A stretch of DNA of 64,000 bases from Hoeflea algicola (GTDB lineage: Bacteria; Pseudomonadota; Alphaproteobacteria; Rhizobiales; Rhizobiaceae). Below, piece after piece: positions 25,986 to 35,638 of this stretch. Location: assembly GCF_026619415.1 (NCBI RefSeq), contig NZ_JAOVZR010000001.1, forward strand, positions 2,712,501 to 2,776,500. Direction: 5' to 3'. A program made the position numbers and the translations under genes. Each line of letters opens with the position of its first letter. Position 1 is the first letter of the stretch. A model generated the notes under the pieces. The model was not told the DNA's origin. It ran no database searches and saw only the letters and a list, made by a program, of their open reading frames with translations.

Positions 25986-26434
25986 TTCTTATATCTCCAC
26001 ATCCGCGCCATAACCCGTCGCGGTAAGGAGCTCGCATTCTACGCTCCTGGCACTGCTGCGGTCTCATTCAGGCGACAACTATTAGGTATCAAATCAAACT
26101 ACGGCGCAATTAGCCAGATCGACTAATAGCAACGCGCATGCCCGGGATGCAATCGGAGCGACAATAGCGGGAAGCAGGCCCCCTCCATACCGGATTTTGA
26201 GGCTGGAATTATCAAGCCGCTTTAGCAAGTGGATGAGCCCGGCGCACTTACGTTCCCAGCTCATGCACTTGCATGGATTTCACCGTAATAAGATGGAGCC
26301 AGTCGCATCGGAAGATACACAGATGCAGCAAATTGTACCAAGGGTCGTGAAGTTGAAATCTTGCGACGTCTACAAATTCATTCAATGCAGCAATAATATT
26401 GTAGCCTCTCCAAAGGAGTTGCCTTATCTTCGGA
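25986..26434. other. Gene-poor, A/T-richer intergenic region
   Basis: About 450 bases lie between the acyl-CoA synthetase and a truncated frame. Base composition is visibly more A/T-rich than the flanks, and no frame has family resemblance. The segment may be a remnant of the accessory region, since a genomic-island boundary is expected nearby. I see no tRNA fragment and no convincing promoter. Confidence 0.45.
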
Positions 26435-26679
26435 ATGTGGCAATGGCTCATCGCAGGGAAAGAAGATTTGGAATTTCGGGAAAAATTGAGAATGTCGTTA
26501 GATCGGTCACTGGCCGATGCGCGTGCACGCGGTTCGCATGACGCCGACGCCGTGGTGGGGATGTATCGCTCACAAGTAGAAAAGACCCTCGAGCGCTTGC
26601 GTGAACAAAGTCCTCAAAAGGCCGAGCGCTACGAACGGATGTTTGAAGAAACGATCGCGGAATTCCGCCGGGATTGGCG
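26435..26679 (+). pseudogene. Unknown gene, 3' end removed at the IS element
   Basis: The frame encodes 81 residues, starting MWQWLIAGKEDLEFREKLRM. It is strongly helical and charged (SRSLADARARG-like, then VEKTLERLREQSPQKAERYERMFEETIAEFRRDW), with no stop before the inverted repeat of the insertion element at 26680. I do not recognise a family. No continuation is found beyond the element, so the 3' part appears lost. The start could also be the second methionine (MSLDRSLADA). Confidence 0.5.
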
Positions 26680-26708
26680 TGCCCCCATCAGGTGGTCCGG
26701 TTTGATTG

Positions 26709-27524
26709 TTAGTGCATCATGGGCGTCTGGTCCATCGGGACAATGCTTTCCGGCGCGGGCGGGCGGTAGCCCAGAGCGCTATGCGGCCTGACGGTGTTGT
26801 AGTGGATACGCCATTGCTCGATCAGGATTTGCGCCTCCCTTAGGCTGTAGAAGATTTCGCCGTTCAGCAGCTCGTCGCGGAACCGGGCGTTGAAGCTTTC
26901 GCAGTATCCGTTCTCCCATGGTGAGCCTGGCTCTATGTAGGCCGTCTTGGCTCCAACAGCTGCAATCCAATCCCGCACTTTCTGGGCGATAAATTCCGGC
27001 CCATTGTCCGACCGAATGTATTCCGGCGGGCCGCGCAGGATGAATAGGTCTGTCAGAGCATCCAGCACGTCCGTTGAGTTGAGCTTGCGGTCCACGCGGA
27101 TCATGAGTGCCTCCCTGGTGTATTCGTCGATGATATTCAGCGTCCGATAGACGCGGCCGTCAGCGGTTCGATCCTGGACGAAGTCGTAGGACCAGACGTG
27201 GTTTGGCCGTTCCGGTCTGAGACGCACACATGATCCGTCGTTCAGCCAAAGCCGCCCCTTTTTCTTCTGCTTTTGTGGCACTTTCAGCCCTTCACGCCGC
27301 CAGATGCGCTCAACCCGCTTATGGTTTACCTGCCAGCCCGCGTTGTTCAGCAGACCGGTGACCATGCGATACCCATAGCGCCCGTACTTGTCGGCCAGTT
27401 CGATGATATCATCGGTCAGCCGTTCTTCATCTGCCCGGCCCTGTGGCACCTTGCGCTGTGTGGATCGGTGTTGTCCGAGCGTGCGGCAGGCGCGGCGTTC
27501 TGATACGCCGAGCTCCCGCCGCAC
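26709..27524 (-). CDS. IS3-family transposase OrfB (DDE integrase core)
   Basis: The catalytic triad is visible in a retroviral-integrase-like core: D in WSYDFVQDRTADGR, D in YIRSDNGPEFI, and E in GSPWENGYCESFN. An HTH_21 domain precedes it (RYGYRMVTGLLNNAGWQVN). The annotated ATG gives 271 residues, but the frame stays open upstream and encodes LLSPSRRRKCIDHV, the normal start of the OrfAB fusion. It is therefore likely made mostly by a -1 ribosomal frameshift near the end of orfA. No internal stop is present, so the element may be active. Confidence 0.93.
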   Translation of the reverse strand: MRRELGVSERRACRTLGQHRSTQRKVPQGRADEERLTDDIIELADKYGRYGYRMVTGLLNNAGWQVNHKRVERIWRREGLKVPQKQKKKGRLWLNDGSCVRLRPERPNHVWSYDFVQDRTADGRVYRTLNIIDEYTREALMIRVDRKLNSTDVLDALTDLFILRGPPEYIRSDNGPEFIAQKVRDWIAAVGAKTAYIEPGSPWENGYCESFNARFRDELLNGEIFYSLREAQILIEQWRIHYNTVRPHSALGYRPPAPESIVPMDQTPMMH

Positions 27525-27556
27525 ATGGTCGATGCACTTGCGCCGACGCGAAGGGC

Positions 27557-27835
27557 TTAGAAGTTTCCCTTTGCCGCCTCGGTCAGGATGAGTTTGTCCA
27601 GTGTCAGGTCAGACACCGCCCGCCGAAGCCGCTGGTTCTCCTTCTCCAGCTCTTTCAGCCGAGTGAGTTGAGATCGCTGCATCCCGCCATAGAGCTTCCG
27701 CCATCGATAAAACGTCTGCTGTGTCACGCCGATCTGGCGCACCGCGTCAGCAATCGTCGCACCTTGCCCTTGCAGAACTTCAACCTGCCGAAGCTTCGAT
27801 ACAATCTCTTCCGGCTTCTCTCGTTTTCCAGCCAT
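27557..27835 (-). CDS. IS3-family OrfA (helix-turn-helix)
   Basis: The 92-residue DNA-binding subunit has an HTH_Tnp_1 domain (PEEIVSKLRQVEVLQGQG then IADAVRQIGVTQQTFYRWRK) followed by a leucine-zipper-like helix (LTRLKELEKENQRLRRAVSD). It binds the terminal repeats and feeds the OrfAB transposase by frameshifting near its C-terminal KGNF stop. The ATG is at 27835, 60 bases inside the right inverted repeat. Confidence 0.92.
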   Translation of the reverse strand: MAGKREKPEEIVSKLRQVEVLQGQGATIADAVRQIGVTQQTFYRWRKLYGGMQRSQLTRLKELEKENQRLRRAVSDLTLDKLILTEAAKGNF

Positions 27836-27895
27836 CGCTGATCCTCCAATTTGAGGGATAATCTATCCCAGTTGGTGGACCACTTTCAGGGGGCA

Positions 27896-28015
27896 ACTCC
27901 ATTTGGGCAAATTCGATATGTCGCCCATAGCTGACCAGCCAATGGCAACGTACCCATTTTCCAGCGCATCACTGCCGATGTCTTCCGGCATGTGCAGCCC
28001 CCAAAGCGTGGTCAT
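27896..28015 (-). pseudogene. 5' fragment of a restriction-associated gene cut by the IS
   Basis: Reading on the minus strand, an ATG at 28015 overlaps the TGA of the restriction-modification gene (ATGA). It opens exactly 40 codons, MTTLWGLHMPEDIGSDALEN then GYVAIGWSAMGDISNLPKWS, and the frame then enters the IS inverted repeat. The N-terminus resembles that of Mrr-type restriction proteins that start MTTLWGLHMP-like, but this is from memory and only 40 residues exist. The remainder is absent on the other side of the element. Confidence 0.6.
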
Positions 28016-31000
28016 GCCGCGTATCTCCCATCTTCAATTAACTGTGCCTGTCCGAGAGCCGCCAAGCTGGCCAGAAGCGGTTCGACGGACGCTGTACGGG
28101 CGCGCTGGAACCGGCGAGCGATCTGTTGCGGTGTCGCCTCGCCCATCTCTTCCAGAACCTCGCGCACGGCGGCGATCTGTTCCGGGAGAGCCTTGGGCCA
28201 AGCCTCTTTTTCGACTTTAACCGCAGCGCCGACATCCAATTCGTTCTGATTGCCCTTGGCTTCGGCATGTTTGCCTTCCGGGTTTTGATAGTCCGGACGC
28301 AGCCAGCGGATATGGCCTGCCGCCTCTTCCGCCGTTCTCTCCTTGTTGAGAGACACTAGACGGTACATCAGCTCATCTTCAGCATTTTTCTGATCCGACG
28401 CTTTGAGCTGATGCGGCTTTGTCGCGCCTTGCCTGCCAATCAACTTACCCGCAATGTCACCCCAGCCATAAGCTTGAAAAACTAATTTATCGATCCTGTC
28501 ATGGTGTTGCTTTAGAATTGCAATATTAGCGTTCCGATACACTTCACGTTCATCAGCCGAAATATTATAATCTTTGGAATTATCGGCGACTCGCAGAGCT
28601 TCCAGTACGTTATACATACCTGTTAGGGTCAATCCCGGATTCGAAACAATTTGTTTTCGTCGAAATTGATCAAGTTTCTGACCCTCGTTCCGAAGCTCGT
28701 CAATCAAGTCGTCCTTGATTTCTTCAAGAGCAGGGAAGGGAAATTTGTTGAAAGTATTCGTATGCTGATAGACAGGATCGTTGCCTTTGCCTTGCCAACC
28801 ACCGGTACGGAACGAGAATTCAACATGGACACGTGAGCACAGAACGCTAAAAATTGCCCAGTCTGAACATGCGATCACACGGATTTTTTGATCAGGTGCA
28901 GCTTCGCCATCTAGCTTGCTGAATATGCGGTGAGCTGCAGTCTCTGTTGTGCCGAAGAAGAAGGGCAACCCTTCCAGTGCGGCGCGCATTTCTGTTGACG
29001 GCTGCCCAAAACGCCACCATTTTTCGCGTCGATATTTCATCTTATCTTCTGCTCGAACCGGCTTGGAGCTCTCTAGCAGGTGCTGGTAAGCTTCTGGAAA
29101 TTTATCCCGGACGAATGATTCCGATTTCTCGTGAAAATCCAAGGCAAAGCGATTTCGCGAGACTTGGTTCAATTCTCGCCCATTTATGTATGGACGGATA
29201 AATTTCTCCGCATCGGGCTTAACGCCATACCCCAGACGGTGAGCTTCAGTTTCGTCAACCCAGAAAGCCAATCCGTATGGCTTAAAGCCTTGATGGGCTA
29301 GACCAAGATTGGATCTCAGCGGAACACATGCAGAAAGGTTCGGCCCAATTTGAAGATTTGAGTAGATTTTCCCTTCGGCCTTTTGGAAGGTTACGATGCA
29401 GCCTTCGGCTTCGTTCTTTTCTTTCTTTTCGGTGGCTACACTAAAGAGCACCCCAGTCCGTTCACCTTTACCAACCACAGTCATTGAAATACGCACCGCT
29501 GCTCCATAGAGCGTGTCTACCCAGGGATGGTCCGGGATTGCGAACAACAGCGAGATCGGCTTTTTCGGATCGTTTAGATGCGGCTCCAGCACACGACGAT
29601 TGTAAGTCTGACGCAGGGAGTTGGTCGTAATCAAACCGAAACGGCGGGTTCCCTTGCCATTCTTCGAATTGTAATCACGGGCGGCCAAGGCTGCTTTATC
29701 CCACCAAAACATGACCAGATCCGCACTTGGCGGTACTTTTGGATATGCTGACCACAGAGCCTCAATATAGCCATCGCCCAAGTCTTCTCTCAAATTTTTC
29801 GAACCAATAAACGGAGGGTTTCCAACGATGAATTCCGCATTCGGCCAAACTGTGGCTTTTGGGCTCATGTATTCAAAAACCGGTTCTCTAGCCGAAACAT
29901 CAGGCAGCTCTTTACCGGTTACGGGATGTCGGAACGTCGTCACTTTGTCCCAAACCGTAATCGGATCGCCCGCCTCGTCTAAGCGCGGTTTACGATCGGA
30001 CCATTCCAGCACCGCATCTCGGTTCTCAATATTCCGGAAGTCTTTTAGTACAGGTTCGGATGGAGCCGCCGTGCCGTGGGTACGGAAATGCCATTGCAAA
30101 TAACCTATCCAAAGCACTAGTTCCGCAACCGCTGCCGCCCAAGGGTTTAGCTCGATGCCCAAAAACTGGTGCGGGTCGACTGTATGGCCGGAAAGTCCCA
30201 AAGTGGCCTGATTTTCGCCAAGCTCGGTCAGCAGCGCGGTGACTTCACCTTCCAGACGCTTCATCATTTCCAGCGCCACATAAAGAAAGTTACCCGAGCC
30301 GCAGGCCGGGTCCAGCACCTTTGTTTCGCAAAGCTTGCGGTGGAAATCATGCACCGCTTCGCGGGCCTCGCCTTCCTTACCGTCAGCCGTCAACCGTTGC
30401 ACGGCGGTTTGCACATCCTTCCAGTCGGCGCGCAGAGGCTCCATGATGGTTGGCATCACCAGCCGCTCCACATAGGCGCGCGGTGTGTAGTGTGCGCCGA
30501 GCTTGTGGCGTTGGCGCTTGTCCAGTGCGCGCTCCAGCAAGGTGCCGAAAATGGCGGGCTCCACCAGTTTCCAATCGGCATCGGCAGCTTCAATAAGAAG
30601 ACCGAGTTGGGCATCATTCAGCGGCAGCGCGTCGGCATCTTTGAATAGGCCACCGTTAAACTCTTTCAGTTTGGTGGCCAGTACGGCAGAAAAGCCGCCG
30701 GTATTCATGGTTTCCCACAGGTCCTGCAGTGTCGGCGCTGCATCTTCAGGATGGTCGCGCAGTTCCTTCAGCTTATTGGTGAAACTGTCTTCGGGAATCA
30801 ACTCGACATCTTCAGCAAACATTGAGAACAGACAGCGCATCAGGAAGCGGGCAACTGTTTCACTGTCATGGCCCTGCGCTTCGAAACTCTTGCCGAGTTC
30901 CGCCAGATGAGCGGCGATTTTCCGAGTGACCTTTGCTGCAACCAGAGAAGGATCCAGCGATTGGGGTTTGGTCCAAACGCTACGCAGAAGGGTTCGGGTC

Positions 31001-31569
31001 TCTTCCTTCCGCAGATCGTCCAGCTTGATCCTGTAGCGGTTGCCGTCCGGAAACTGGGTGTAACCCTGTCCAGCACGTGAGAAATCTGCGAAAAGCTCGA
31101 TCACATGGCCGACATCGACTATCATCAGGAAAGGTGGCCAGCCATCTTCTTTGGAAACGGCGCGGGCGTAGCCATCCGCCTGATTCCGAGCTTTCAGCAT
31201 GGTGTCGTCCCACTTGGCCGTACCACGCGGGCCGTGACCCAGCCGAACCTTGGGCGCATCGTCCTGCGTCAGAAGCGCAAGTTGATCCTGATCTTCAGGC
31301 TTGATCCGGTCACCACCCTGCTTTGCTTCCAGAACAAAACACCCGGTTTTATAGAGATCGATCCGGCCACGGCTTTTCCGTCCGGTATGGGTAAAAGTGA
31401 CAGGCCGCTCAAAGCGATAATCGTTATTTTCGCCGTCGCTGGTCGCGGGCTTTGGCCGATCCACACCCAGCAAGTCCGTCAACTCATTTGCAAAGCTTTG
31501 GAAGTTCGCCATTTCACTGCCGCTGGACGGTTTCCAGCGGGTGATAAAAGCTTCGACGGATTCGGACAT
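28012..31569 (-). CDS. Single-chain restriction-modification enzyme, MmeI-like (type IIL/IIG)
   Basis: The 1185-residue protein combines cleavage and methylation. Near the N-terminus a PD-(D/E)XK site has the spacing D-X9-E-X-K (Asp71, Glu81, Lys83 in RIDLYKTGCFVLEAKQ), exactly the MmeI pattern. The gamma-class N6-adenine methyltransferase has motif X HKLGAHYTP, motif I LDPACGSGNF at 419-428 and catalytic NPPF at 584-587. A target-recognition region and a C-terminal extension of about 200 residues follow, so it is some 260 residues longer than MmeI. An ATG two codons inside the longest frame was chosen. It follows the second recombinase by 54 bases and overlaps the truncated gene. It probably protects against phage or plasmids and methylates one strand of its site. 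Confidence 0.9.
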   Translation of the reverse strand: MSESVEAFITRWKPSSGSEMANFQSFANELTDLLGVDRPKPATSDGENNDYRFERPVTFTHTGRKSRGRIDLYKTGCFVLEAKQGGDRIKPEDQDQLALLTQDDAPKVRLGHGPRGTAKWDDTMLKARNQADGYARAVSKEDGWPPFLMIVDVGHVIELFADFSRAGQGYTQFPDGNRYRIKLDDLRKEETRTLLRSVWTKPQSLDPSLVAAKVTRKIAAHLAELGKSFEAQGHDSETVARFLMRCLFSMFAEDVELIPEDSFTNKLKELRDHPEDAAPTLQDLWETMNTGGFSAVLATKLKEFNGGLFKDADALPLNDAQLGLLIEAADADWKLVEPAIFGTLLERALDKRQRHKLGAHYTPRAYVERLVMPTIMEPLRADWKDVQTAVQRLTADGKEGEAREAVHDFHRKLCETKVLDPACGSGNFLYVALEMMKRLEGEVTALLTELGENQATLGLSGHTVDPHQFLGIELNPWAAAVAELVLWIGYLQWHFRTHGTAAPSEPVLKDFRNIENRDAVLEWSDRKPRLDEAGDPITVWDKVTTFRHPVTGKELPDVSAREPVFEYMSPKATVWPNAEFIVGNPPFIGSKNLREDLGDGYIEALWSAYPKVPPSADLVMFWWDKAALAARDYNSKNGKGTRRFGLITTNSLRQTYNRRVLEPHLNDPKKPISLLFAIPDHPWVDTLYGAAVRISMTVVGKGERTGVLFSVATEKKEKNEAEGCIVTFQKAEGKIYSNLQIGPNLSACVPLRSNLGLAHQGFKPYGLAFWVDETEAHRLGYGVKPDAEKFIRPYINGRELNQVSRNRFALDFHEKSESFVRDKFPEAYQHLLESSKPVRAEDKMKYRREKWWRFGQPSTEMRAALEGLPFFFGTTETAAHRIFSKLDGEAAPDQKIRVIACSDWAIFSVLCSRVHVEFSFRTGGWQGKGNDPVYQHTNTFNKFPFPALEEIKDDLIDELRNEGQKLDQFRRKQIVSNPGLTLTGMYNVLEALRVADNSKDYNISADEREVYRNANIAILKQHHDRIDKLVFQAYGWGDIAGKLIGRQGATKPHQLKASDQKNAEDELMYRLVSLNKERTAEEAAGHIRWLRPDYQNPEGKHAEAKGNQNELDVGAAVKVEKEAWPKALPEQIAAVREVLEEMGEATPQQIARRFQRARTASVEPLLASLAALGQAQLIEDGRYAA

Positions 31570-31623
31570 CACCAATAAACTGCCCTATGAATAATTTAGC
31601 GAACCAGAGTTCGTACCGGGAAA

Positions 31624-32733
31624 CTATGTCGCGCGATTTTGCAGGAATGTCACTACCTTGGCGATTGTTTCGGGATCTGGCTCAGAGACGGATGGCTCTT
31701 TGGTTCCCGTGCTGTTGCCGATAGCCGATAACAGCTCTCCCTGCCTCTTTGTCGCAACGGTCCCATAACTGGTGAAAGTTGTCAGCACCTGTTCATGGCC
31801 CAGGTTCTGGCTCCAAGCCTTGAACGCTTCGGGTGTCTGGCATTGGACTTCACCCAGTTGAGCAAGCGTATCCCGGAAGCTGTGAGGATTGGCATAGGGC
31901 AATCCAGCGGCCTCAAATGCAGACTTGAAGATCCGTCTGATCGCCGCCGCATTTTTCCAGTGGTTGCGAGAAAGCCCGAGAGCTCCAAACAACCCGCTGT
32001 TGGTAAGCCCGACTTTAGTTGCCGGAAACAGCGGATCATCAGGGCCATAAACAAGCGGTCCTTTCAGATGCTCCACCCAGTCGCGCACGATAGTTTCGAC
32101 GTCCCCGCCCACCGGGAAAAAGAACGTGGTAAATGTCTTGCGGCTCTTCGTCCGAACATCGCGGGCATCCTGAAACACCTGCCTGCCTGCCAGATCAATA
32201 TGCTTCAGACTGAAGGAAGCGATTGCGTTGTCACGTGCGCCGGTCAGCAATGTGAAGGCGACAATTGCCCTGTCGCGTTTTTCGATGTCGCTGCCGGTCG
32301 GCATTTTTGAGAGCACCAGCTTTATCTGTTCAATCGTCGGAACCTTCTTCTCCCGGCGCGCTGTGGCGATACGGCTGTCATTGGCTGATGGGTTGAAATA
32401 ATCCGCATCGGCATAGGAGATGCGCGACTTGTACCCGGACTGGCCAGCCAACCAAAAAACGAAGGCTTTGAGCGCCATAAGCCGGGAGTGGGTCGTGGCC
32501 TTGGCCAGCGCCTTGCCGGTCTTCTCATTGACCTGCTTCGCAAGCCAAGCCTTGTAACCCTTGGCCTGCTCAATGTGGAATTTCGCAAAGTCGCGATAAC
32601 TGGACCAATGTTCATAGCTGGCAATCGCCGCCGCTGCCATATCAACGCTGCTGACATCCATGCGCTTTGCCTCCTTGAGATAATCGAAATAGCGGCGTTT
32701 GATCCGCTCGTTTTTCGGATGGTGTTTTTTCAT
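31624..32733 (-). CDS. Tyrosine recombinase/integrase (second, alphaproteobacterial type)
   Basis: The 369-residue protein has a SAM-like N-terminal domain and a C-terminal catalytic domain. Tyrosine-recombinase residues are visible: Arg167 in TLLTGARDNAIASF, His284 and Arg287 in NPHSFRDTL, His313 in LGHEQVLTTF and Tyr323 in TSYGTV. The start MKKHHPKNERIKRRYFDYLK is typical of a recombinase group widespread in Alphaproteobacteria. Its ATG overlaps the HTH/zinc-ribbon stop (ATGA), so the pair is made together. It lies directly before the restriction gene and may move or rearrange the cargo, but this is inferred. Confidence 0.9.
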   Translation of the reverse strand: MKKHHPKNERIKRRYFDYLKEAKRMDVSSVDMAAAAIASYEHWSSYRDFAKFHIEQAKGYKAWLAKQVNEKTGKALAKATTHSRLMALKAFVFWLAGQSGYKSRISYADADYFNPSANDSRIATARREKKVPTIEQIKLVLSKMPTGSDIEKRDRAIVAFTLLTGARDNAIASFSLKHIDLAGRQVFQDARDVRTKSRKTFTTFFFPVGGDVETIVRDWVEHLKGPLVYGPDDPLFPATKVGLTNSGLFGALGLSRNHWKNAAAIRRIFKSAFEAAGLPYANPHSFRDTLAQLGEVQCQTPEAFKAWSQNLGHEQVLTTFTSYGTVATKRQGELLSAIGNSTGTKEPSVSEPDPETIAKVVTFLQNRAT

Positions 32734-33212
32734 GCCTGAAGCTCCTTGTTGAAGTGATCATTTCCACGGGGTTTGCCCCTATCGCTTAGGCGTGGCTGAC
32801 CATGGGGAAATGAAACTTCTGCTCGCCGCTCCAGGAGGGCCAGTTTCGCGGCGCTGAAGGCCTTGTGCATGATTGTCCCGCAATCCTCACAGATGGCGCT
32901 GATCTGACCACTGAGAGCCGTGCGCGGCATGTAGTCGACCATTCCACCTGCTGCTGCCTTTGGCTCCTGACAGCGAAAACAGAAGCACTGGTGAAGCTCG
33001 CACCTCTGCTTAGGCTTTTTGCGGCTGGTCAGAAAATCGCGCAGATCAGCGCCAAGTATCAAATACGGTCGTTGGTCGGTGAGGTGCGGCAGGCCATCCT
33101 TGAGCATTCGCCGGATTGTGCCTTTGCATACGCCAAGCGTGCGCGCCGCTTCTTCCGAGGTGTAGCTGTAGTGCAGCTTGATCGCCCGCCTGTTGGGGCG
33201 ACGCCGGGCCAT
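32730..33212 (-). CDS. Helix-turn-helix/zinc-ribbon protein
   Basis: The 160-residue protein begins with a MerR/excisionase-like HTH (YTSEEAARTLGVCKGTIRRM), then a CxxC-rich part (CELHQCFCFRCQEP and ICEDCGTIMHK) likely to bind zinc. Similar proteins are found upstream of recombinases of this type in many alphaproteobacterial islands. It starts immediately after the AlpA stop and ends 4 bases into the recombinase start, so the three genes form a tight unit. A recombination-directionality or accessory role is plausible but not shown. Confidence 0.8.
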   Translation of the reverse strand: MARRRPNRRAIKLHYSYTSEEAARTLGVCKGTIRRMLKDGLPHLTDQRPYLILGADLRDFLTSRKKPKQRCELHQCFCFRCQEPKAAAGGMVDYMPRTALSGQISAICEDCGTIMHKAFSAAKLALLERRAEVSFPHGQPRLSDRGKPRGNDHFNKELQA

Positions 33213-33419
33213 CTAGCGGCCTCCGGTTTCAATCAGAGTCCGGATGTCTTCAACCCGCCACGCGGTGATGCGCGGCCCAAGCTTCACCGGCTTAGGGAAG
33301 CGCCCATCCTTGATGCCAGCCCACCATGTGGATTTGCTGACAGGAATAGGCCCGTTCGGGGCGATGATTGCGGGCAACCGGACAAAGCCGGTGGAGGGAA
33401 GGTCATTGCGGTTCGGCAT
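33213..33419 (-). CDS. AlpA-family regulator/excisionase-like protein
   Basis: This small HTH protein has 68 residues. KSTWWAGIKDGRFPKPVKLG is the AlpA signature with the recognition helix, and it ends AWRVEDIRTLIETGGR. AlpA-like proteins act as activators or excisionases in P4-like islands. The ATG at 33419 follows AGGTGG by 4 bases. That ribosome-binding site lies in a hairpin. A longer frame upstream overlaps the unknown 205-residue gene and is not credible. Confidence 0.85.
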   Translation of the reverse strand: MPNRNDLPSTGFVRLPAIIAPNGPIPVSKSTWWAGIKDGRFPKPVKLGPRITAWRVEDIRTLIETGGR

Positions 33420-33423
33420 GGTG

Positions 33424-33451
33424 CCACCTCGTCTTGAGAAAACTAAGGTGG
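33424..33451 (-). promoter_or_regulatory. Hairpin sequestering the AlpA ribosome-binding site
   Basis: CCACCT at 33424-33429 (plus strand) pairs with AGGTGG at 33446-33451. On the minus strand the 3' arm is the AGGTGG that serves as Shine-Dalgarno four bases before the AlpA ATG. Six pairs and a 16-base loop make a weak structure that could limit translation. Confidence 0.35.
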
Positions 33452-33496
33452 TTTTGCGTTGTCCGCTGGGTTGCGGCAGCCTGAAAGGGTAGAAAC

Positions 33497-34114
33497 CTAA
33501 CCTTGGAGGTTTTTGGATTTCTTCAGGTAATTGTAAATCTTGGATATTCTTTGTTTGACAGCGCTCTCTGCTGGTTCGACGCCGTAGGTGTCGGAAAACC
33601 ATTGAAGCATGTCACGAATCAATTCTGCCTGTGTCTCGGGCAATCCATCGGGGCTGTTGGCCCGACAAATCACCTCCAGAATAAAGCTGTCCCAATCGTA
33701 CTCCGGAGGACGCCCACCGACATTACGATCTGTTTTCGCTATGACAGATTCTACTGGCTCGGATCGCTGCGGATGCGTGGACGCCTGAAGTGCTTTCTCG
33801 CCGCCAAAAGAAGCCAGTGTGTTGAAAAGAAATGCCGGAAACAACTTTCTTTGCTCAGCATAGGCTTTGAGGTCGTCTCTGGAAACGAAACTCATAGAAT
33901 AGTTTCCAATGCTGGAAAACGGGTTTGCCTCTGAATTTGCCTGCAATTGCCCAGTCATTATTGCACCGGCCAGCATCTGCTTGACTGCAACGGCCTCCGA
34001 CGGATTACTACTATCAGAAAGCTTCATTCTCGAAGGCTCTATGCCACACCACAGGGCCGCCGCCTGATCCACGGTAAACACTTCCACATACATCCAGTTT
34101 GAAATGTCACTCAT
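33497..34114 (-). CDS. Unknown island protein, 205 residues
   Basis: The product starts MSDISNWMYVEVFTVDQAAA. Its N-terminal region (about 1-70) looks like a compact helical domain with VDQAAALWCGIEPSRM, and the C-terminal part has ELIRDMLQWFSDTYGVEPAESAVKQRISKIYNYLKK. No family is recognised, but genes of this shape often sit beside P4 integrases. The ATG at 34114 is preferred over a TTG five codons upstream. It ends 77 bases before AlpA. Confidence 0.6.
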   Translation of the reverse strand: MSDISNWMYVEVFTVDQAAALWCGIEPSRMKLSDSSNPSEAVAVKQMLAGAIMTGQLQANSEANPFSSIGNYSMSFVSRDDLKAYAEQRKLFPAFLFNTLASFGGEKALQASTHPQRSEPVESVIAKTDRNVGGRPPEYDWDSFILEVICRANSPDGLPETQAELIRDMLQWFSDTYGVEPAESAVKQRISKIYNYLKKSKNLQG

Positions 34115-34180
34115 GGTTTCGTGCGCCAATGAGAAATCGGAATTGAGTTGTCTGATGCAACATCATTATTTCAAATGAGA

Positions 34181-35368
34181 TCAGACTTGTCTAAGTTCGT
34201 CCAGAGAACTTGTCCACCAATCCGCCATCTTCACGCGGTCTTCCCAATAGAGTGCCCGATGATAAGCCCGGCGCACTTCATCACCGCTGACATGCCCAAG
34301 CTCAGCTTCAATCGCATCGGCAGGCCAAAGGCCGCTTTCATTCAACAGAGTCGAAGCAGAAGCGCGGAAGCCGTGCGAGGTTGCCTGATCCTTGCCAAAG
34401 CCCATGCGTCTTAGTGCCAAATTCATGGTGTTTTCGCTAAGCGGCCTTTCGGCGGATTGCGGTGACGGAAAGACCAGCCGTCTGTTGCCCGTATGGCGCT
34501 GGAGGTCACGAAGAATTTCAACGGCCAATGCCGGAAGGGGTTTCTTATGCGCGCGCCGCATCTTGGCGCGTTCCGCCGGTATGGTCCAAACACCCTTATC
34601 CAGATCGAATTCTTGCCATTCCGCTTGGCGCAATTCACCGGGACGAGGGTAAAGCAACGCCATGAGCATTAATGCAATGCGGGTTTCGACACTACCGGAA
34701 TAGACCCAGGCAGCCCGGATCAGTTTCGCGAAGCTCTCCCAGTCGGTAAGCGCGGCGCGGTGGGTTGCCTTCGGCGCAATCAGTGCGCCTCTAAGTCCAA
34801 AAGTCGGGTCGTTATCAGCCCTTGCCGTTGCAATCGCATAACGGAAGACCTGACTGATCACCGCGCGCAAGCGGCTTGCGGTTTCGTATTTGCCTAGGCC
34901 TTCAACCTTGCGCAGCGGAACCAGCACCTCAGAGGCAGTGATCTCGGCAATCGGCCTATTTCCAAGATCCGGCAGCGCCAAGCTGACGAGCCATTGTTTC
35001 TTGGACAAGGTCGCTATTGATTTGCCCTCGCGCTGGTTCTTGGCAAGGAATTCGTCGGCAATGGCTTGAAACGTGTTTGCGCTGGAATCGGCCTTGGATT
35101 GTTTCTCCAGCTTTTGCCAATGCGCAGGATCAACGTCACTCGCCAACTGCTTTTTTGCCTCTTCGCGTTTGGCTCGAGCGTCTGCCAACCCGACGGCTGG
35201 GTAAGGTCCAAAGGATAGTAGCTTCTGTTTGCCGCCATACCGATAAGCCAGACGCCACAGCTTGCCGCCACTGGGGGACACAAAGAGGTGTAATCCGCCG
35301 CCATCGCTGACCTTGCGGGGCTTGTCAGTCGGTTTGAGGTTCACGATTTGCCGGTCTGTCAGTGCCAT
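34181..35368 (-). CDS. P4-type tyrosine integrase
   Basis: The 395-residue integrase has an N-terminal arm-binding domain (DUF4102-like: MALTDRQIVNLKPTDKPRKV then DGGGLHLFVSPSG), a central SAM-like domain and a C-terminal catalytic domain. The latter shows Arg in PRPGELRQAEW, His332/Arg335 in SHGFRASASTLL, His359 in ELGHVSGDEV and the tyrosine in RAYHRALY. Such integrases insert islands into tRNA 3' ends, and tRNA-Leu lies 185 bases upstream. Four TTGGTAT-like repeats lie in its 5' region. Confidence 0.94.
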   Translation of the reverse strand: MALTDRQIVNLKPTDKPRKVSDGGGLHLFVSPSGGKLWRLAYRYGGKQKLLSFGPYPAVGLADARAKREEAKKQLASDVDPAHWQKLEKQSKADSSANTFQAIADEFLAKNQREGKSIATLSKKQWLVSLALPDLGNRPIAEITASEVLVPLRKVEGLGKYETASRLRAVISQVFRYAIATARADNDPTFGLRGALIAPKATHRAALTDWESFAKLIRAAWVYSGSVETRIALMLMALLYPRPGELRQAEWQEFDLDKGVWTIPAERAKMRRAHKKPLPALAVEILRDLQRHTGNRRLVFPSPQSAERPLSENTMNLALRRMGFGKDQATSHGFRASASTLLNESGLWPADAIEAELGHVSGDEVRRAYHRALYWEDRVKMADWWTSSLDELRQV

Positions 35369-35371
35369 TTA

Positions 35372-35429
35372 TTGGTATCCACAACTGCAAAAGTGTTGGT
35401 ATCGTGCCAGATACCAACAGGAATACCAA
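35372..35429. repeat. Four TTGGTATC-type repeats (probable integrase arm sites/operator)
   Basis: TTGGTATC occurs at 35372-35379 and 35396-35403 and in inverted form at 35410-35417, with a seven-base form ATACCAA at 35423-35429. The inner pair extends to a perfect 10-bp inverted repeat, TGTTGGTATC/GATACCAACA, separated by six bases. All lie just upstream of the integrase start, a usual place for arm-type binding sites or autoregulation. Confidence 0.6.
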
Positions 35430-35484
35430 CAAATGATTTGGATGCCAGAAACCGCCACCGGACGGCAAAAGACTAAGAATCAAC

Positions 35485-35510
35485 AAAAAAACCCGCTTTT
35501 ACGGGCTTTC
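35485..35510 (-). terminator. Intrinsic terminator of tRNA-Leu
   Basis: On the minus strand, AGCCCG at the 5' side pairs with CGGGTT (one G-T pair) around a short A-rich loop, followed by seven T residues. It starts about 45 bases after the tRNA 3' end and could also stop read-through into the integrase. Confidence 0.65.
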
Positions 35511-35553
35511 TAATGAGTTTCTGGATTATCTCGGACAGTCTAAAACAAGGAAA

Positions 35554-35638
35554 TGGTGCCCCCTTCCGGACTCGAACCGGAACTCCTTGCAGAACCGCAT
35601 TTTGAGTGCGGCGCGTCTACCAATTCCGCCAAGGGGGC
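35554..35638 (-). tRNA. tRNA-Leu (CAA anticodon)
   Basis: The 85-base gene includes an encoded CCA. It has a class II long variable arm and the acceptor stem GCCCCCT/AGGGGGC. The 7-base anticodon loop CTCAAAA lies between CCGCA and TGCGG, giving anticodon CAA (codon UUG). The T-arm is CCGG-TTCGAGT-CCGG. Its 3' end faces the P4 integrase and is the likely attachment site. Confidence 0.95.

Follow-up and report, generated by a model that had tools for sequence, protein, structure and literature searches.

Can a genomic island that pairs a second tyrosine recombinase with a restriction enzyme act as a vehicle on which defence genes are exchanged? Restriction-modification (R-M) systems are very common bacterial immune systems with a fast turnover, and their vehicles are often unknown. 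Such a pair lies at a tRNA-Leu gene of Hoeflea algicola (Alphaproteobacteria, Rhizobiaceae; RefSeq assembly GCF_026619415.1), within a stretch of 64,000 nucleotides (positions 2,712,501 to 2,776,500 of contig NZ_JAOVZR010000001.1, or G000:C1:2712501-2776500), hereafter called the window; coordinates without a prefix count from its first letter. An initial annotation, made from the sequence alone, had read this locus as a mobile, exchangeable defence cassette. We conclude that the locus is probably a partly decayed member of an island family in which a constant module is joined to one exchangeable DNA-targeting immune system, mostly R-M, with activities and roles that we infer from comparison. 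The parts of the window locus are the following.

35554..35638, minus strand: tRNA-Leu(CAA), the integration target, called by ARAGORN, with the proximal attachment site at its 3' end (35554)
34181..35368, minus strand: INT, a P4-type tyrosine integrase of 395 amino acids (aa); PF13356 (Arm-DNA-bind_3), PF22022 (Phage_int_M) and PF00589 (Phage_integrase) above the Pfam cut-off
33497..34114, minus strand: x, a 205-aa protein in a variable slot between INT and AlpA (open reading frame 34129-33497, likely ATG at 34114)
33213..33422, minus strand: AlpA-like protein of 69 aa (open reading frame 33602-33213); PF05930 at 28.1 bits, cut-off 21
32730..33212, minus strand: HTH_17/excisionase-like helix-turn-helix (HTH) protein of 160 aa with two CxxC pairs (HTH/zinc-ribbon); PF12728 at 34.0 bits
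32731..32808, minus strand: dyad-symmetric conserved element directly 5' of rec, here overlapping the end of the HTH gene; alignment A4, covariation, covariance-model hit of 67.4 bits
31624..32733, minus strand: REC, the second tyrosine recombinase, 369 aa; PF00589 at 32.0 bits, above cut-off
31576..31623, minus strand: gap between REC and R-M genes, 54 bp up to the ATG at 31569
28012..31575, minus strand: MmeI-like type IIG/IIL restriction enzyme-methyltransferase (TTG at 31575, ATG at 31569); PADLOC REase_MTase_IIG PDLC03627, 1514 bits
27896..28015, minus strand: 5' part of a gene for an Mrr_cat-type restriction endonuclease, interrupted by an IS3 element; start at 28015, 40 codons left
26680..27895, minus strand: IS3-family element, transposase open reading frames 27835-27557 and 27524-26709; PF01527 and rve domains
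26060..26679, no strand: distal remainder of the insertion, unmatched in near-empty sites of the same genus

All island genes lie on the minus strand, in the order INT, x, AlpA, HTH/zinc-ribbon, REC, MmeI-like enzyme and start of a cut gene behind the tRNA. The seven genes are where the initial annotation had placed them, and its spacings of 0, -4, 54 and -4 bases from AlpA onward are correct, the 54 being counted to the ATG. The two recombinase genes of the element are not adjacent.

Relatives of the locus were collected with a 35-row REC alignment and a 22-row HTH alignment. Set A consists of the window and the best 80 of 224 REC relatives in genomes of the Genome Taxonomy Database (GTDB). 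The HTH alignment matched 19 of 199 genomes of the taxonomic family, and the REC alignment 47 of 397 genomes of the order, where 37 of 57 matches were fetched (one at a contig end and short or weak ones omitted). Removal of six repeat-fetched loci (L112, L115-L119) and nine order-sample duplicates left 120 non-redundant REC loci, 81 in set A, 11 in set B and 28 in set C, the out-of-sample set from the order. Genes were called with a simple caller of open frames. Many genera across Alphaproteobacteria share the order INT, x, AlpA, HTH, REC (L011-L090), so that the arrangement goes beyond chance. Acidobacteria and some others have INT after REC on the opposite strand and the R-M genes before x, and loci of other phyla with a different gene order keep the R-M link (L052, L061, L070). 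A tRNA gene beside a plus-strand INT was found at 46 loci, window included; 31 of these genes are tRNA-Leu (29 CAG, 2 CAA), and the other targets are Thr, Gly, Phe, Arg, Gln and Glu tRNA genes. In 17 of the 46, the tRNA 3'-end region is repeated almost exactly downstream, 5.7-12.0 kb from the tRNA; such a repeat was counted if it exceeded the best of ten shuffles by 3 nt or more. In L013, L018, L027 and L029 it directly follows the R-M genes. Taken together, these loci probably form a family of widespread compact integrative islands of about 6-12 kb.

What do these islands carry? Cargo representatives were typed with PADLOC and Pfam (28 chosen proteins in PADLOC), and cluster hidden Markov models (HMMs), built from sets A and B, were then used to label all loci. 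Defence genes lie beside REC in 76 of the 96 assessable loci, 24 of the 120 being cut by contig ends. They stand after REC in 61 loci, before the module in 14 and in both places in one. Set C gave defence genes in 15 of its 22 assessable loci. Among all loci that cover the respective 2-kb bin after REC, defence genes occur in 58/107 (0-2 kb), 56/99 (2-4), 41/92 (4-6), 10/85 (6-8) and 2/62 (8-10), and upstream 8/109 (-2 to 0 kb), 12/94 (-4 to -2), 9/91 (-6 to -4), 3/60 (-8 to -6) and 2/55 (-10 to -8); the signal is thus concentrated 0-6 kb after REC. A search proposed in the initial annotation, for varied defence systems at the same position, was borne out: R-M of types I, II, IIG, III and ISP, Mrr, Cas9 and Hma occur at or beside it, and a TmtA-like protein was also found. 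Examples are listed here.

L012: type III Mod and Res
L113: type I M, S and R
L111: Mrr (Mrr_N, Mrr_cat), after MmeI
L019: type ISP
L022: UvrD/PDDEXK protein with type III-like genes
L037:1590-6096: Cas9 (1065 aa), Cas1 and Cas2 directly after REC
L125:10115-12316: Cas9, a shorter 734-aa frame, near REC
L198:796-4137: Cas9 (1114 aa), before x
L069: EcoRV-like nuclease with D12 methylase
L044: type II methylases
L188:634-8877: HmaA and HmaB after a REC relative; PADLOC 1551 and 1156 bits
L195: TmtA-like protein

AlpA, HTH and REC are closely packed in many loci, and in the 42 loci with R-M directly next on REC's strand the median gap is 74.5 bp. The proposal that regulator, recombinase and defence enzyme form one transcript is nevertheless not supported for the family: the first defence gene lies on the opposite strand in 10 of the 62 loci with such genes after REC, and the cargo stands before the module in 14. 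A promoter scan returned 2 sites against 2.0 expected, and is therefore uninformative on a single transcript either way. In two loci, L066 and L078, the R-M genes lie between INT and REC and an attachment repeat lies 100-190 bp after rec, indicating a second cargo position.

We then compared the histories of module and cargo. Heads with similar REC proteins carry different systems: L057/L072 share 90% aa identity (ISP/IIG), L072/L078 88% (IIG/ISP), L017/L037 87% (III/Cas9), L024/L114 84% (IIG/III) and L021/L044 82% (I/II). Mantel tests gave r=0.815 for HTH and REC (73 loci, 0/2000 permutations). For type III cargo the values were 0.12 for Res-REC (163/2000) and 0.06 for Mod-REC (486/2000), over 18 and 17 loci, with 0.91 for Res-Mod; for type I cargo, over 12 loci, they were 0.14 for HsdR-REC (425/2000) and 0.01 for HsdM-REC (945/2000), with 0.95 for HsdR-HsdM. 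Judged by these comparisons, HTH and REC are inherited together, and cargo and REC are not. The variety of the cargo and this decoupling make an exchangeable defence cargo on a constant recombinase module a well supported reading.

Where do head and cargo meet? In the different-cargo pairs compared, BLAST DNA similarity stops about -130 to +23 from the rec stop. Identity per 30 nt between L017 and L037 is 83-100% down to -150 and then 73, 77, 60, 57 and 36%; between L024 and L114 it falls at -90. The window and L111, which have the same kind of cargo, dip to 73-80% and show 97% in the last 60 nt of rec. A join inside rec appears clear only where the core is nearly identical, as in L017/L037. 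The x slot has been exchanged too, for the window and L111 share REC and MmeI, and their identity stops after INT and resumes at AlpA. The idea of an exchange site common to the loci, placed between rec and cargo, was rejected: within 200 nt downstream of the rec stop, the most frequent 9-mer occurs in 6 of 85 loci, and shuffles reach 4. In the rec tail, conserved codons give a commonest 9-mer in 19 of 87 against 5, and synonymous conservation of rec peaks near residues 106 and 4-20, not at the 3' end.

Several results weigh against an exchangeable cargo on a constant, integrated module. INT and REC correlate less than HTH and REC (Mantel r=0.39, 61 loci). The REC tree carries a slight cargo signal, with 25 changes against a shuffle mean of 29.0 (standard deviation 1.7) and 23 of 1000 shuffles as low; for this count, 55 labelled of 84 rows were used, rec shorter than 300 or longer than 460 aa, L124, L125 and L127 being dropped, L064 taken as IIG and L054 omitted. 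Same-cargo pairs also lose identity in the rec tail (WIN/L011, 41-63%, WIN being the window locus; L043/L046, 56-73%); the tail therefore evolves fast, and the comparison is informative only for pairs whose cores are almost identical. A repeat meeting the shuffle threshold is lacking in 29 of the 46 tRNA-bound loci, the window among them, and L056 uses another tyrosine integrase instead of the P4-type INT. Finally, no defence gene was found, by HMMs and by eye and not by PADLOC gene by gene, in 20 of the 96 assessable loci. The objection foreseen in the initial annotation, that genes downstream in other genomes would not be defence-related, applies to these 20.

REC itself has the residue pattern of an active tyrosine recombinase (R, K, H-x-x-R, H/W, Y), as judged by alignment. 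Over 35 rows, R167, H284 and R287 are invariant and H313 and Y323 are at least 90% conserved; K196 and K199 are both invariant, and either may be the catalytic lysine. Its AlphaFold2 model is closest to Xer, Cre and phage integrase folds, with low whole-chain template-modelling scores, and sequence searches found no solved relative of REC at E 0.001 and none of the HTH protein at 0.1. REC as the sole integrase where a P4 integrase is missing was ruled out for L056, which has the other tyrosine integrase.

Conservation across phyla extends over the 75 nt upstream of rec, both where this segment overlaps the HTH gene and where part of it is noncoding. The segment holds an 8-pair inverted repeat that covaries: 73.0% of 363 cells are paired against 62.0 in shuffles, and covariation is 0.353 against 0.203 in shuffles (0/500), with 0.080-0.156 for slid versions. 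Pairing is kept in 58 of 83 cells at the 11 loci whose right half is noncoding, against a mean of 52% in row shuffles (0/1000), and at one pair G-C and C-G are about equally frequent (17 and 16). The dyad was spotted by eye and is also the best 6-bp stem of a column scan, so these counts follow a search, and the shuffles and slid controls support it; alignment A4 was built from 47 of 63 upstream sequences after removal of misfits and reversed loci. The 47 aligned copies share an invariant TA dinucleotide, and the dyad sits upstream of an AAAGGA-type ribosome site. RNAalifold predicted no structure on the first upstream alignment, and the dyad region of L083 had no Rfam match.

At E<=1e-5, a model of the 47 rows matched 83 of 99 sources, of which 36 had not been used to train it. 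Among the 16 sources without a match, rec is absent from L231, L079 starts within rec, and the RECs of several others are distant. Matches lie at the 5' end of rec except in L014, L017 and L033, where rec is further away, and in L087. One copy is present in 82 of the 83 sources, and L087 has a second (E=1.2e-4), also before rec. There (L087:9580-10010), HTH, dyad, a short rec start stub, the weaker second dyad and a full rec follow one another, as if a rec unit had been inserted behind an older one. The window genome has one confident copy, in the window, and 198 genomes of the taxonomic family have 11 copies at E<1e-5, all at loci found with HTH. Two weak extra matches (G169, G058) look like chance, lying among unrelated genes with no REC, HTH or R-M match. 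From its placement and distribution, the dyad belongs to rec; it may serve as a recombination site, an operator or an RNA leader.

REC was also sought in phages and plasmids. A general phage or plasmid gene was rejected, with no match in 50,697 phage records and four plasmid records below 60% identity. REC relatives nevertheless occur at nine loci on eight viral contigs. On phage contigs L228-L230, which are 99.99-100% identical where shared, rec follows a virion-type gene, and in L229 (12002-18487) rec is followed in turn by type III Mod and Res; no such insert is present at that place in the related phage L231. Two of these three contigs end inside rec, and the other, left end of one of them, L222 (1-9390), has a different 5' part of rec, so that an assembly join is possible. 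The dyad before rec in L229 reaches 7.8 bits only.

How far does the insertion reach in Hoeflea, and is the window copy intact? The right flank of the tRNA-Leu(CAA) site is present in 18 of 18 genomes of the genus. Near-empty sites were found in 4 of 14 same-genus loci fetched, the distance from the AMP-binding enzyme gene to the tRNA being 175 bp (L145), 180 (L150), 314 (L149) and 349 (L153), against 9.6 kb in the window; the other 10 hold 0.9-7.1 kb of other DNA between the flanks, or no left flank in the stretch. The near-empty sites place the insertion from about 26.0-26.1 kb to 35553, and since they end at 35554, the proximal attachment site was put there. No second copy of the tRNA 3' end is left within the window. 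Genome G046 has a related element (L111) at tRNA-Leu(CAG), and its own tRNA-Leu(CAA) site (L144) holds about 1.4 kb of other sequence; the element therefore occupies different tRNA-Leu genes within one genus.

The initial annotation had reported the last gene as truncated; the truncation is real, and the gene can now be named. It is interrupted at about 27896 by the IS3 element, whose ends, read by eye at 26680 and 27895, showed no target duplication. The 40-codon fragment has no Pfam match of its own, and its one plasmid relative, a Paracoccus protein matching at 60% over 30 residues (E 3e-6), has been annotated as a restriction endonuclease and contains an Mrr_cat domain (73.1 bits). By this resemblance, the fragment is the start of an Mrr_cat-type nuclease gene. 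That it is the same gene as the Mrr (Mrr_N and Mrr_cat) following MmeI in L111 was rejected, as the two show no similarity. IS3 has removed most of this second nuclease gene and probably the distal attachment site, and on these grounds the window copy is probably no longer mobile and partly decayed.

Two further signs of insertion were noted in the genus. In another of its genomes (L152, G204), the 3' end of tRNA-Leu(CAA) is repeated over 18 bp at a distance of about 4 kb from the tRNA site used in the window, as if another insertion were present. The genome of the window itself has a second, degenerate island at tRNA-Leu(CAG) (L218:1701-15964; G000:C1, about 3526.7-3541.0 kb), with a 71%-identical INT, a distant HTH/REC-like pair and several transposase genes, some resembling the window IS3.

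The remaining parts of the window locus can be described briefly. INT matches NCBIfam PRK09692 at 236.6 bits, below the cut-off of 434. Protein x has no Pfam match above cut-off and 149 relatives; its AlphaFold2 model (predicted local distance difference test, pLDDT, 82) divides into an N-terminal domain (residues 1-98) and a helical C-terminal one (137-199). In different loci the x slot is occupied by proteins of about 200-360 aa that do not resemble one another; several share, by eye, a C-terminal GRPPxYDW-type stretch, and the product of the slot is possibly a regulator. The AlpA start at 33422 is likely, and 69-aa homologues occur in many loci. The HTH protein matches TIGR01764 below cut-off, and all four of its cysteines are invariant in the 22-row alignment. 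The MmeI-like enzyme has an intact reading frame of 1187 aa, with MmeI_N, MmeI_hel and MmeI_Mtase above the Pfam cut-off, and its PADLOC type IIG match spans the whole chain.

How would such an island work? The constant part usually comprises INT, x, AlpA, HTH/zinc-ribbon, dyad and REC. Most likely, INT would recombine the element into a tRNA 3' end, mostly of tRNA-Leu, with AlpA and the HTH/zinc-ribbon protein acting as excision or directionality factors, and REC with its adjoining dyad would provide a second element-encoded recombination function, in mobility or maintenance. The R-M cargo would protect the host from phage and stabilise the element. Replacement of cargo would take place between related elements that come together at the same tRNA site: recombination within or beside the conserved AlpA-HTH-REC block would join the resident head to the incoming cargo. 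Exchange mostly by recombination between related elements at shared tRNA sites is the most likely route, and we infer that this would usually be homologous recombination.

Could REC be a mere passenger? If the locus were an ordinary tRNA defence hotspot, P4-type integrases would bring R-M genes and REC would be unlinked to the cargo. Nineteen P4-integrase islands of the taxonomic family, hand-chosen with known REC loci excluded and without a REC match (L209 and L210 are short), served as control. R-M genes were found in 5, with a sixth match at 60 bits left uncounted, and directly follow INT in L199 and L201, so integrase islands carry R-M without REC too, less often in this hand-picked set. 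The E. coli hotspots described in PMC10121019 are likewise used by many mobile elements, P4-like satellites included. Yet the proportion beside REC is 76/96 against 5/19, although with controls hand-picked from one family, and the module keeps its R-M link with another integrase (L056) and in the other phyla (L052, L061, L070). We hold the hotspot account unlikely. That the association is an artefact of similarity-ranked loci, and of HMMs trained on them, is very improbable: set A was indeed drawn as the top 80 of 224 relatives, and its cargo served to build the HMMs, but 15 of 22 assessable loci in the out-of-sample set also have defence genes, and PADLOC supports the named types for the 28 chosen proteins.

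More would follow if REC were a cassette recombinase acting at its own dyad, with units of dyad, REC and R-M moving between elements and even into phages. The covarying dyad directly 5' of rec in most sources, and its restriction in the 198 genomes to loci also found with HTH, would fit this. So would the invariant TA, just left of which, by eye, foreign sequence joins the element in L078; the arrangement of HTH, dyad, rec stub and then full rec with cargo in L087 and, less clearly, L017 and L033 (stubs seen by eye); and the phage contigs L228-L230 with their insert absent from L231. However, no confident second dyad was found at the far end of a cargo in the 99 sources, the phage dyad resemblance is faint and the phage evidence may reflect an assembly error. 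Similarity between different-cargo pairs ends near the rec 3' end, away from the dyad, HTH and REC stay paired in the long term while R-M changes, no 9-mer after the rec stop stands far above shuffles, and the cargo can lie on the opposite strand or before the module. We therefore regard this account as doubtful. Of the cassette first proposed, then, exchange of cargo relative to the module and direct repeats in part of the loci stand; that REC itself moves the cargo is not supported, in view of the missing second dyad and of the R-M genes in 5 of 19 islands without REC. Alternatively, HTH/zinc-ribbon, dyad and REC could make up a control circuit by which restriction is delayed or switched upon entry into a new host, the dyad being an operator or RNA leader. 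A symmetric, single-copy dyad before a ribosome site and the often short REC/R-M gaps agree with it, but the loci with cargo on the other strand or before the module do not, and a pure regulator would not need the catalytic residues that rec has kept. Such a circuit appears rather improbable. In preference to these accounts we retain the constant module with exchangeable cargo.

Comparison with known systems sets the family apart. P4-like satellites, which have defence hotspots, resemble the window element in AlpA, variable defence genes and a P4-type integrase, although INT of the window matches the three Pfam domains and stays below the PRK09692 cut-off; unlike them, the window element shows no P4 replication or capsid-control genes, none being matched among the six element proteins scanned against Pfam and NCBIfam. 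Integrons and staphylococcal cassette chromosome (SCC) elements place a site-specific recombinase gene beside exchangeable cargo. In the window element no site array and no serine recombinase were seen, and no cassette boundary site was found at the far end of a cargo. Its restriction enzyme, like MmeI and type IIL R-M, combines MmeI_N, a helical spacer and methyltransferase domains in one chain; unlike MmeI, it has 1187 aa and a match to the target recognition domain MmeI_TRD below the Pfam cut-off (24.3 against 27), and is followed by the broken Mrr_cat-type nuclease gene.

E. coli has integrase-only and multi-integrase defence islands, including GInt, whose transfer route is given as unknown (PMC10121019). 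They resemble the present family in their tRNA or other hotspot, integrase or recombinase genes, defence cargo and, in that account, absence of other mobility genes; the present family differs in its fixed AlpA-HTH/zinc-ribbon-REC module with dyad and mostly one DNA-targeting system (PMC10121019). GInt comprises three integrase genes and a small helical protein (PMC10121019), against two non-adjacent recombinase genes here. In Pseudomonas, the transfer-messenger RNA (tmRNA) islands I23, I44 and I55, AlpA-bearing with R-M, are moved by a jumbo phage (PMC12595487). They share with our family a tyrosine integrase, AlpA, direct repeats (in part of our loci), R-M cargo (protective in I23/I44/I55) and, as described there, a lack of transfer genes, but have several cargo systems, a YqaJ-containing core and AlpA at the far end, and the passages concerned name no second recombinase (PMC12595487). 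No published description of the present gene set was found by title or abstract in the literature searched.

The family is definable across Alphaproteobacteria and beyond, and its constant genes locate R-M, CRISPR-Cas9 and Hma cargo by position. The x slot and the unlabelled genes beside REC are places to seek new defence genes. It is quite unlikely that the dyad is REC's own site and that the family is a dedicated immunity exchange system, in which heads stay at tRNA genes and REC-borne defence units, sometimes phage-carried, are swapped in; if true, the family would be a recombinase-cassette system devoted to immunity, differing from integrons in how its sites are laid out and from SCC in its enzyme. 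With head and cargo histories measurably decoupled, the family makes it testable how restriction systems change hosts and partners, and whether REC or the dyad controls that change.

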